DNA of 52,536 nt, from contig NZ_CAIT01000001.1 of the NCBI RefSeq assembly GCF_000296815.2, forward strand, positions 1 to 52,536. The letters run 5' to 3'. Of the stretch, positions 11,713-15,774 are shown one piece after another. The translations under genes and the position numbers were made by a program. Within the stretch, counting starts at the first letter, position 1. Every line of letters begins with the position of its first letter. The stretch is from Fibrisoma limi BUZ 3 (GTDB taxonomy: Bacteria > Bacteroidota > Bacteroidia > Cytophagales > Spirosomataceae). Under the pieces are notes generated by a model. The model did not search any database. It was not told the origin of the DNA and saw only the letters and a list, made by a program, of their open reading frames with translations.

Positions 11713-12843
11713 ATGGTGCCTACGCTCCGCATCCTGAAAGCTTTTTTTTTCACCATTCTTACGTCCCTGCCTGCTTTGACGAATGGGCAGGTGCTGACTG
11801 ATCCCAGTCTTCAACAGACCATTCAGCAGGCGTTGGATAAGATCTACAACATGGAGTTCGATGAAGCCGAGACCCTCATCCGACAAATTCGAACCCGGTA
11901 TCCGCAACACCCGGTCGGACCAATTCTGCGCGCTACGCAACTCGAGCTTCAATACCTGCCGGTTCATGAAAACACGGCTGCAACGGCGCAATTCACTCAG
12001 GCCACGCTGCAGGGACTTGAACAGGCGAAACGAATGCTGGGGCGTAATGAAAAGGACCCTGAAGCTATCTTTTTTGCCCTGACGGCACATAGCTATTTAG
12101 CTTCTCTGTATAACAACCAGGGGGAGTCTTTAAAAGCCGTTTCCGAGTCGAAAAAGGCGTATACCTACATGAAGGATGGCTTCGCGTTGATGAATAAAAG
12201 CACGGATTTTTACTTCACGACGGGCTTATACAACTACTACGTGAAGCGCTATCCGATGGACCATCCGGTAGTCCGGCCGTTTATGTTTTTCTTCCAGGAC
12301 GGCGATATGCAGACTGGATTGAAGCAGATGGACGTTGCTACGCGAAAAGCGTTATTTATGCGACCCGTCGCCTGCTATTATCTGGCGCATATTTACCTCA
12401 AGCATGAAAATCAGCCAGCAAAGGCTATTGGCTATACCAAATACCTGGCGGATAAATATCCCAACAACCCACTGTTCGCGATGATTAACGCAGAAACGTT
12501 GCTGCTATCCGGGCGGTATGCAGAGGCTCAGCCCTATGTGCAGCAGCTACGGCAGATTCAGCATAAGCTGGTTCCGTTGGCTGTCAGAGTGTTTGATGGC
12601 CTGCTGCAGGAACATCTGTCAAAGAACGATCGGGAAGCGGCTGCGAACTATCAGGCAGCCTTGAAATTACCTTACAACCGAGCCTACACGATGGAATACA
12701 ATGCCATGGCCTGCGCCGGTTTGGCCCGTATTGCGGCCCGGGCTAATGATCCAAACCGGGCGAAAGAATACTACAAGCGGGTGCTTAAGATCAGTGAGTA
12801 CAAGGGCCTGGTTCGCGAAGCAAAGAACTACACAAAAAGCTGA
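11713..12843 (+). CDS. Exported tetratricopeptide-repeat protein, function unknown
   Basis: A 376-residue protein with an N-terminal export signal (LRILKAFFFTILTSLPALTNGQ). The remainder is alpha-helical with TPR-like units, for example ALDKIYNMEFDEAETLIRQI, ARYAEAQPYV-like segments around residue 270 and a final DPNRAKEYYKRVLKIS. TPRs mediate protein-protein contacts, and no catalytic motif is visible. It is divergent from the M16 gene, with starts 87 bases apart, and it is followed after 65 bases by the phosphotriesterase homologue on the same strand. Confidence 0.75.
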   Translation: MVPTLRILKAFFFTILTSLPALTNGQVLTDPSLQQTIQQALDKIYNMEFDEAETLIRQIRTRYPQHPVGPILRATQLELQYLPVHENTAATAQFTQATLQGLEQAKRMLGRNEKDPEAIFFALTAHSYLASLYNNQGESLKAVSESKKAYTYMKDGFALMNKSTDFYFTTGLYNYYVKRYPMDHPVVRPFMFFFQDGDMQTGLKQMDVATRKALFMRPVACYYLAHIYLKHENQPAKAIGYTKYLADKYPNNPLFAMINAETLLLSGRYAEAQPYVQQLRQIQHKLVPLAVRVFDGLLQEHLSKNDREAAANYQAALKLPYNRAYTMEYNAMACAGLARIAARANDPNRAKEYYKRVLKISEYKGLVREAKNYTKS

Positions 12844-13912: not shown

Positions 13913-15774
13913 TCAATAGTCAACCTCTAACCCCAGCGCCTTTCGCAGCTCATGAAGTGCCGGATTCTTTTCGGCCATGTAGTTGAACTTATCCAGCGGG
14001 CTGTAGATGAGTTTTTTTGTTTCAATAACCACTACCTCGTGTTCAATCGTGATCTGGCTGTTTTGCAGCGTATCGCGCAGACAGGCAAGGAGATCGGGTT
14101 TTAACTCGGTGAGAATGTCCACCTGCAACCGATTATCGAGGGTCAGGTGAATGGCTGTGCCTTCCAGCCGCAAGTCACGATTCAGTACCAGTTGTTCGCT
14201 CATGGAGCCGGTCTGTCGCTGCCGTTGCTGCGCAAAAGAATCCCAGCAGGCTTTCAACTGCTCGAAAATGAACGGCTTATCCGGTCGGGTAGGAGCCACA
14301 ACCGCTACCGCCTGATCGGTATTGGCCGAACCCGCCGTTGGCGTAGCGGTCAGACTTACCGTAGTACGTAGTCGGCTCGTTGGTGGGAGGGGCCGGGGAG
14401 GCAGCGGATTTTTGGTTGTACTGGCAACTGCCGGTTGAGCAGCATGGGCCACGGCCGTGCCGTTCGTATGCGGAGTAGCCTCATGGTGAGTGGACAGGCC
14501 ATTGGCTGGCTTATAACCGTTGACCGGCTCGCTGGTAATCGGATGCGTTTCGAGCGGAATTCCGGACGTAGCAGCTACGGGTTCGCTTCCGTTAAGCGAT
14601 GGTATGCTGTTTTTTTTTCGGCCCCGTTGAGCGGTGCCTCTGAGGGAGCCGTAGTGGGTAACGTGTTCCAGTCCAGTACGTTGCGCAGGTTAGCCAGCTT
14701 CATCAACGCCAGCTCCACGTGCAGCCGCTGGTCTTTTGCCTGTTTGAAGTTGATGTCGCACTGCCCGCCGATGCTCAGCGCCGACAGCAAAAACGACATA
14801 GGTGCCTTGGCCGACTGCTCCAGGTACTGTCGCCGGACGTTTTCGGTCACCTGCAATAGCTGCACCGTTGCCTGATCTTTACAGACGAGCAGATCACGGA
14901 AGTGGCGGCATAAACCCACAACAAACTGGTGCACATCAAAACCTTTCCGCAGGATTTCGTCCAGCGTGAGCAGACTTTGGGTCAGGTCGCCCGTCAGCAG
15001 TTGGTCCGTGAGTTTGAAGTAATAATCGTAATCGAGGATGTGCAGATTGTCCAGCACTTCCTTATACCGAATAGTCCGGTCGGCCGAGAACGTAACGTTC
15101 AGATCGAACATCGATAGGGCGTCGCGCAGACCGCCATCGGCCTTCTGAGCAATCAGATCAAGCGCGTCGGACTCGGCCGTTATGCTTTCCTTTTGCGCAA
15201 TGCTGGCCAGGTGACTGGCAATGTGTTGCGGCTGAATCCGGTTGAAATCAAAAATCTGACAGCGCGACAGGATTGTCGGCAGGATTTTATGTTTCTCAGT
15301 AGTCGCCAGAATAAAAATAGCGTACGAAGGTGGTTCTTCCAGTGTCTTCAGAAAGGCATTGAAAGCCGCCGACGAGAGCATATGCACCTCGTCAATGATA
15401 TAGATTTTGTATTTGCCGGACTGGGGCGGATACCGTACCTGATCAATCAGATTACGGATGTCCTCAACGGAGTTATTAGAAGCCGCATCCAGTTCGTGGA
15501 TGTTAAAGGAAGCACTCTGGTTGAAGCTCGTGCAGGACTCGCACTCGTTGCAGGCTTCGCCCTCGGGCGTTAGGTTATGGCAATTGATGGTTTTGGCCAG
15601 AATCCGGGCGCAGGTCGTTTTGCCGACCCCGCGCGGTCCACAGAACAGGAAAGCCTGAGCCAAGTGATTGGTTTTGATGGCATTCTTGAGCGTAGTGGTG
15701 ATATGCTCCTGCCCAACGACCGTATCAAAGGTCGCGGGCCGGTACTTTCGGGCTGAGACCACAAAATTTTCCAT
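13913..15774 (-). CDS. dnaX: DNA polymerase III tau subunit, predicted -1 frameshift product of dnaX
   Basis: The clamp-loader subunit tau is expected to be made when the reading frame shifts by -1 in the A9 run at 14610-14618. From that run the -1 frame stays open without a stop to 13913, giving about 620 residues. The added part is a proline-, threonine- and alanine-rich linker followed by a folded domain (KPFIFEQLKACWDSFAQQ, ending ALGLEVDY), as expected for the tau C-terminal polymerase-contact region. The two frames are not an obvious sequencing error, because the zero-frame product alone is a complete gamma-like protein. The start MENFVVSARKYRP at 15774 is preferred over an ATG five codons upstream. 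Confidence 0.85.
14575..15774 (-). CDS. dnaX: DNA polymerase III gamma-like subunit, zero-frame product of dnaX
   Basis: Without frameshifting, translation ends at the TAG at 14575, giving 399 residues. This part holds the AAA+ ATPase: Walker A GPRGVGKT at 46-53, a four-cysteine zinc module (CHNLTPEGEACNECESC), IIDEVHML as Walker B and a sensor-1 region (ILATTEKHKILPTILSRC), plus the clamp-loader collar domain to about 370. It corresponds in extent to E. coli gamma. The last 11 residues after the A9 run (TAYHRLTEANP) are specific to this form. Confidence 0.85.
   Translation of the reverse strand: MENFVVSARKYRPATFDTVVGQEHITTTLKNAIKTNHLAQAFLFCGPRGVGKTTCARILAKTINCHNLTPEGEACNECESCTSFNQSASFNIHELDAASNNSVEDIRNLIDQVRYPPQSGKYKIYIIDEVHMLSSAAFNAFLKTLEEPPSYAIFILATTEKHKILPTILSRCQIFDFNRIQPQHIASHLASIAQKESITAESDALDLIAQKADGGLRDALSMFDLNVTFSADRTIRYKEVLDNLHILDYDYYFKLTDQLLTGDLTQSLLTLDEILRKGFDVHQFVVGLCRHFRDLLVCKDQATVQLLQVTENVRRQYLEQSAKAPMSFLLSALSIGGQCDINFKQAKDQRLHVELALMKLANLRNVLDWNTLPTTAPSEAPLNGAEKKTAYHRLTEANP
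14583..14618 (-). promoter_or_regulatory. dnaX recoding site: A9 slippery run plus downstream hairpin
   Basis: On the minus strand nine consecutive A (14618-14610) are read as gAA AAA AAA A. Ten bases later a hairpin follows: TCGCTT and AAGCGA (14599-14594 and 14588-14583) with a 5-base loop. Slipping back one base, or adding one A during transcription, joins the gamma frame to the open tau frame. E. coli dnaX uses -1 ribosomal frameshifting and Thermus dnaX uses transcriptional slippage on A9; which applies here cannot be told from sequence. Confidence 0.8.

Follow-up and report, generated by a model that had tools for sequence, protein, structure and literature searches.

The dnaX gene of Fibrisoma limi BUZ 3 appears in the available assembly as two pieces lying in different reading frames and meeting at a run of nine A residues. 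Does this bacterium obtain its gamma and tau proteins from a single gene by a programmed slip at this run, which of the two would then be the slipped product, and is the split a trait of the organism or of its assembly? These questions were addressed from the window, i.e., the whole stretch of 52,536 nucleotides at the start of contig NZ_CAIT01000001.1 (assembly GCF_000296815.2), and from the dnaX genes of related bacteria.

The dnaX locus as sequenced

The locus lies on the minus strand of the window and comprises the following features.

14578..15774, minus strand: gamma-like zero frame, 399 codons from the ATG at 15774 (open reading frame and NF011531 match)
14610..14618, minus strand: A9 run, slippery site (read from the sequence; A10 in the congener G001)
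14575..14577, minus strand: TAG ending the zero frame, 11 codons past the run (read from the sequence)
13913..14620, minus strand: -1 frame with the linker and the tau C-terminal domain (P0001, 235 aa), closed by the TGA at 13913-13915 (open reading frame and NF011531 match)
14583..14599, minus strand: 6-bp hairpin with a 5-nt loop, starting 10 nt past the run (fold compared with shuffles)

The initial annotation, made from the letters of the sequence, had described the nine A residues, the closure of the zero frame 11 codons later at a TAG and a -1 frame open from the run to 13913, and all three were recovered. The zero frame matches the first 365 positions of the NCBIfam model NF011531 (DNA polymerase III gamma/tau; E 1.9e-234) and the -1 frame matches positions 424-614 of 614, i.e., the last 191 (E 4.4e-33); since both match this model, they represent a single dnaX. 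An alternative start at the upstream ATG 15789 would extend the gamma-like frame to 404 codons. The codons across the run are GAA AAA AAA ACA, and the two frames that do not lead to tau close 14 and 8 codons from its first codon.

Conservation of the A run at the gamma/tau junction

A census of the family was based on 146 dnaX genes read in 145 of the 150 genomes searched; the other five yielded no match at E 1e-60, and the census omits them as well as a second fragment from G010 located at a contig end. A run of nine or more A residues occupies the junction in 110 of these genes (A10 in 100, A9 in 8 and A11 in 2), and the A9 of the window is therefore not due to chance; to this extent, the view that it forms a slippery site at the gamma/tau junction is borne out by its conservation. 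Among the 110 genes, hereafter A-type, 95 form a single open frame, 14 end at the run or shortly after it and one is cut by the end of its contig. L036 (contig-cut, with a stop preceding the run) and L051 (cut) belong to the 110 but do not enter the count of changes between the open and the split state. In L036, from the incomplete genome G066, the stop is a TAA created where the A10 run begins, and the contig ends before tau.

Outside the family, the loci were the best 80 of at least 594 stretches, which is not a random sample of Bacteroidota; nine or more A residues were found in 63 of 79 loci of this set, 45 being open and 18 ending at the run, and 9 of the 79 were open without any long run. 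L076 (Dyadobacter) is excluded from these 79 and included in the 64 loci used for counts of phase and length. All three codon phases are used by the run, with 84, 25 and 1 family genes and with 35, 19 and 10 of the 64 other loci, again among the best 80 of at least 594 stretches.

Early closure of both off-frames is a requirement for slippage of either sign. A stop lies within 15 codons of the run in both the -1 and the +1 frame in 82 of the 95 open family genes, compared to 30% at control codons, and in 45 of 45 open loci outside the family (best 80 of at least 594 stretches), compared to 43%. Against slippage, the off-frames close later, at up to 18 and 24 codons, in g5, the genus nearest in number.

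It appears very improbable that no programmed event takes place at all, i.e., that the run is an accident of protein coding and that gamma is either not made or made by proteolysis, as reported for Caulobacter. The open loci devoid of a long run (9 of 79 in the best 80 of at least 594 stretches) would agree with such an accident. On the contrary, the run is kept at A9 to A11 in 110 of 146 family genes despite synonymous alternatives to AAA, stops lie early in both off-frames, and 35 of the 36 family genes lacking the run carry another frameshift cassette in its place. A pseudogene was also considered and is ruled out by the purifying selection on tau and by the recurrence of the arrangement.

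Is the split real?

The only congener compared, G001, is collinear with the window at about 85% identity, and its dnaX harbors an A10 in one open frame of 620 codons. In the DnaX tree, the window pairs with this congener inside a clade of 29 genes, and 27 of the 28 other members are open with A10, the 28th being the contig-cut L036 with its stop just before its A10. The congener and nearly the whole clade thus have an uninterrupted tau frame, unlike the window as given, whose assembly is doubtful at ten-base runs. The initial annotation had proposed a comparison with relatives and had considered that an uninterrupted frame devoid of any A run would speak against it; the relatives present the uninterrupted frame but keep the run.

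Several observations on the genome of F. limi (G000, 7.63 Mb) bear on the length of its run. This genome contains 26 A/T runs of nine bases and none longer, whereas 18 other genomes each present at least three A10 matches; similarly, its C/G runs end at nine, where the congener has two of ten. This absence of ten-base runs is suggestive and is not proof, because the expected number is small. Fourteen nine-base runs are located well inside genes, and the frame is intact at 11 and broken at 3 of them (an automatic count of 6 A/T runs included an antisense open reading frame over dnaX, which was removed from the tally). The three broken genes are dnaX itself (A9), a beta-helix gene (G9) and a third gene (A9). 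The congener's ortholog of the beta-helix gene (78% identical) is intact, and the alignment gives one base fewer at the run in F. limi; the third gene has 5 homologous loci in 4 relatives, and its two parts share a frame in all 5.

L290 (G000:C9:813179) and L268/L320 (G000:C9:968525): the two other broken genes of F. limi, at nine-base homopolymers, with intact relatives

All three breaks amount to one base and go in the same direction, one short; a misreading of ten-base homopolymers as nine would explain them most simply. The base caller was not generally bad, as indicated by the 11 intact frames of 14 and by the equal length in F. limi and its congener of 7 of 7 aligned A/T nine-base runs. 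A second nine-base run of the window, a T9 on the plus strand (11742-11750) in the open reading frame 11713..12843, has the same length in the congener and leaves the frame open. These intact runs and equal lengths fit an error limited to runs of ten bases and more, without proving it.

Two broader defects were also considered. A genome-wide length bias at nine-base A/T runs is absent in the 7 aligned pairs. General poor assembly is ruled out, since comparing 73 open reading frames of the congener (at least 120 aa) with the window yielded a single broken gene, dnaX; the reverse comparison (68 open reading frames of the window) flagged two more cases, which we read as the antisense frame over dnaX and an N-terminal extension. 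At other ten-base sites of the congener, one T10 and one C10 differ in F. limi by substitutions and not by length, while one A10 (only a 34-base match) and one C10 (no match) are uninformative. When the same test for breaks was applied to A/T nine-base loci of the congener, one was flagged, L247, and was read as two neighbouring genes.

The split thus characterizes the assembly but probably not the organism, the given sequence being probably one A short. We consider it probable that the true run, most likely A10, leaves tau as the plain product, that gamma comes from slippage of RNA polymerase, and that the A9 split is an undercall of sequencing or assembly. The A run is placed between domain III and the tau-specific part of dnaX. 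A plain A10 mRNA would yield the 620-residue tau. Slipping of the RNA polymerase on the run would also produce mRNAs whose length differs by a non-multiple of three; translation of these would run into a stop close by, whichever of the two other frames it enters, so that a gamma-like protein of about 400 residues would result. The initial annotation expected two products, of 399 and about 620 residues; this remains the likely outcome, but its premise of a gene split at A9 in the organism is at odds with the open A10 genes of the congener and the clade and with the signs of ten-base runs read as nine. Should the organism indeed have ten A residues here, the roles first proposed would be swapped, tau being the plain product and gamma the product of slippage, as reported for Thermus.

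The converse reading takes the A9 and the split as real: gamma would be the plain product, tau would need one extra A by slippage or a -1 ribosomal shift, and a recent single-base change would have reversed the roles in this species. We regard this as unlikely, although real splits do exist elsewhere in the family. Clear splits at A9 or A10 in which the -1 tau frame is open are present in g19 (3 of 3), g22 (8 of 10) and g20 (1 of 6), which gives 13 clear family cases when the window is included, and the DnaX tree requires at least 9 changes between the open and the split state, including that of the window. Tau of split clades also evolves under purifying selection, with median dN/dS of 0.155 in g22 and 0.167 in g36, the former being much as in open genes (medians of 0.122-0.137 in g5, g17 and g31); these medians are based on pairs with usable dS only, e.g., 5 of 28 in g22. 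A real split would also agree with the dN/dS of 0.052 between tau of the window and of its congener and with dnaX being the only gene found broken among the 73 compared. However, a conserved tau is unable to date a recent change, 27 of the 28 other clade genes are open with A10, and no A/T or C/G homopolymer of ten is found in F. limi, two other genes of which are broken at nine-base runs. Singleton splits, such as those of the window and of G091, may be sequencing errors.

Slippage of the polymerase or of the ribosome?

Several known systems resemble this locus. The dnaX of Thermus thermophilus undergoes transcriptional slippage at an A9 (PMC1088944; PMC5009743), and reviews describe a layout with early closure of both off-frames. 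As far as these accounts go, the likeness extends to the long A run at the gamma/tau junction with nearby stops in both other frames, each of which is found in the window, and to a tau in an open frame, which is found in nearly all near relatives of the window. Unlike in Thermus, A10 is the rule here, and the window as sequenced combines A9 with a split. Antonov et al. (2013; PMC3711429) reported dnaX genes in two frames, with 17 genes in 12 genera, nine of them with 10 A. In these genes as in the window as sequenced, the zero frame leads to gamma, tau lies in the -1 frame and a poly-A occupies the junction; the split of the window differs in that it is not conserved, its near relatives being open, and is probably an undercall. 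In E. coli, the same pair of products comes from one gene by programmed ribosomal frameshifting at A_AAA_AAG, with a Shine-Dalgarno-like sequence and a hairpin (PMC3711429). On the contrary, the run of the window contains no in-frame A_AAA_AAG and no GGAGG is present in the 25 nt upstream of it, whereas 35 other family genes have such a cassette. Both slippage at dnaX (Thermus) and two-frame dnaX genes with 10 A (Antonov et al., 2013) are thus already described; the window belongs with these, probably with a sequencing error in addition. Titles and abstract beginnings of open-licence papers on dnaX slippage or frameshifting in Bacteroidota yielded nothing on the open A10 arrangement or on a GGAGG cassette.

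A ribosomal origin of the shift, by -1 slippage on A_AAA_AAA with the help of the downstream hairpin, appears improbable for the window. Any run of nine or more contains an in-frame A_AAA_AAA, and early stops in the off-frames would be equally useful to ribosomal frameshifting. The hairpin of the initial annotation is indeed present at 14599-14583, 10 nt downstream of the run, and a similar stem is visible by eye in the congener; however, its stability is not clearly above that of shuffles (z of -1.13 over 65 nt and -1.58 over 35 nt). More generally, a downstream fold reaches -6 kcal in 27 of 110 A-type genes versus 35 of 35 genes of the cassette type, and the median z against shuffles is 0.17 in the former, i.e., no excess, versus -0.83 in the latter, so that a role of the hairpin as driver is not supported by the fold z-scores. 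The absence of GGAGG upstream and a run held at ten in every codon phase, with both off-frames closed, also argue against the ribosome.

The direction of the shift in split genes bears on the same point. Where a tau frame was found or was long and open, a -1 shift (one extra A) is needed in 28 of 29 genes (13 in the family and 15 outside, the latter from the best 80 of at least 594 stretches), and the direction could not be told in 3 of the 32 split genes. This bias would suit a ribosomal shift but also fits an RNA polymerase that adds A residues, as a review reports for Thermus. L142, split at an A10 with tau in the +1 frame, speaks against the ribosome and is the sole +1 case among the genes examined, those outside the family being from the best 80 of at least 594 stretches.

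A possible second mode within the family

The 35 family genes with another cassette carry an in-frame heptamer at the same place, either A_AAA_AAG (19) or G_GGA_AAG (16). The remaining gene without a long run, L191, has neither.

L037-L044, L055, L061, L072, L073, L075, L180, L181, L183, L187, L214-L231: cassette loci, motif at the dnaX junction

The cassette genes comprise 26 open and 9 split ones (8 copies of g36 and g30), and as few as two changes on the DnaX tree account for the distribution of slippage and cassette modes. Frameshift sites of the E. coli type have their Shine-Dalgarno-like sequence about 10 nt upstream. A GGAGG precedes the heptamer in 35 of 35 cassette genes, versus 7 of 110 A-type genes and none of 37 gene starts in the window; the spacing is 10 nt in 33 of the 35, and in the other two a nearer second GGAGG was counted, a copy at 10 nt being also visible. 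The Glu codon of this motif is GAG in all 35 genes, compared to 31% in the same genes, and the preceding codon always ends in G. The -1 frame is one codon long in 23 of the 26 open cassette genes, whereas their +1 frame extends for between 1 and 44 codons.

Shine-Dalgarno recognition is reportedly absent from the ribosomes of Bacteroidia, the tail of the 16S rRNA being held by bS21, bS18 and bS6 (PMC9976891). Nevertheless, prfB of F. johnsoniae has a frameshift site of the Shine-Dalgarno type (PMC8710568), with a reportedly low efficiency (PMC12421855). We tentatively propose that one family uses two programmed mechanisms at dnaX, i.e., RNA polymerase slippage on A9 to A11 (110 genes) and a ribosomal -1 shift with an internal GGAGG (35 genes). 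The cassette would then rely on a Shine-Dalgarno sequence inside the gene, although the ribosomes of this phylum reportedly ignore such motifs where translation begins. In ribosomes that are elongating, or that lack bS21, the anti-Shine-Dalgarno tail may therefore be released, which would link the composition of the clamp loader to the state of the ribosome.

Significance and related observations

Through the probable undercall of one homopolymer, an essential replication gene that is intact takes on the appearance of a pseudogene or of two separate genes, and the junction is error-prone because of its conserved A10. The presence of a run of about ten A residues in many dnaX lineages of Bacteroidota suggests that a truncated DnaX is widely selected; as the arrangement is mostly open, it is missed by searches for broken frames. 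With both cassettes present in one family, slippage of the RNA polymerase and frameshifting of the ribosome can be compared directly at a single gene. The internal GGAGG forms a natural test of anti-Shine-Dalgarno use during elongation by Bacteroidota ribosomes, a question of which prfB is already a known case (PMC8710568).

Two observations were made on other loci of the phylum. The L147 locus ends in an apparent adapter sequence, which we take to be Nextera, and is probably a contamination of the contig of a metagenome-assembled genome (MAG). Three loci from Bacteroidales or Bacteroidetes MAGs (L128, L137 and L151) present an in-frame TAG at the gamma/tau junction of dnaX. Its context is CA TAG ATT GC(A/T) AGG in L128 and L137 and is the same after the TAG in L151. 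There is no sign of a changed genetic code in these three, where TAG ends other long open reading frames. Tau continues past the TAG in the same frame for 190-255 codons, making these loci candidates for stop-codon readthrough in place of frameshifting.
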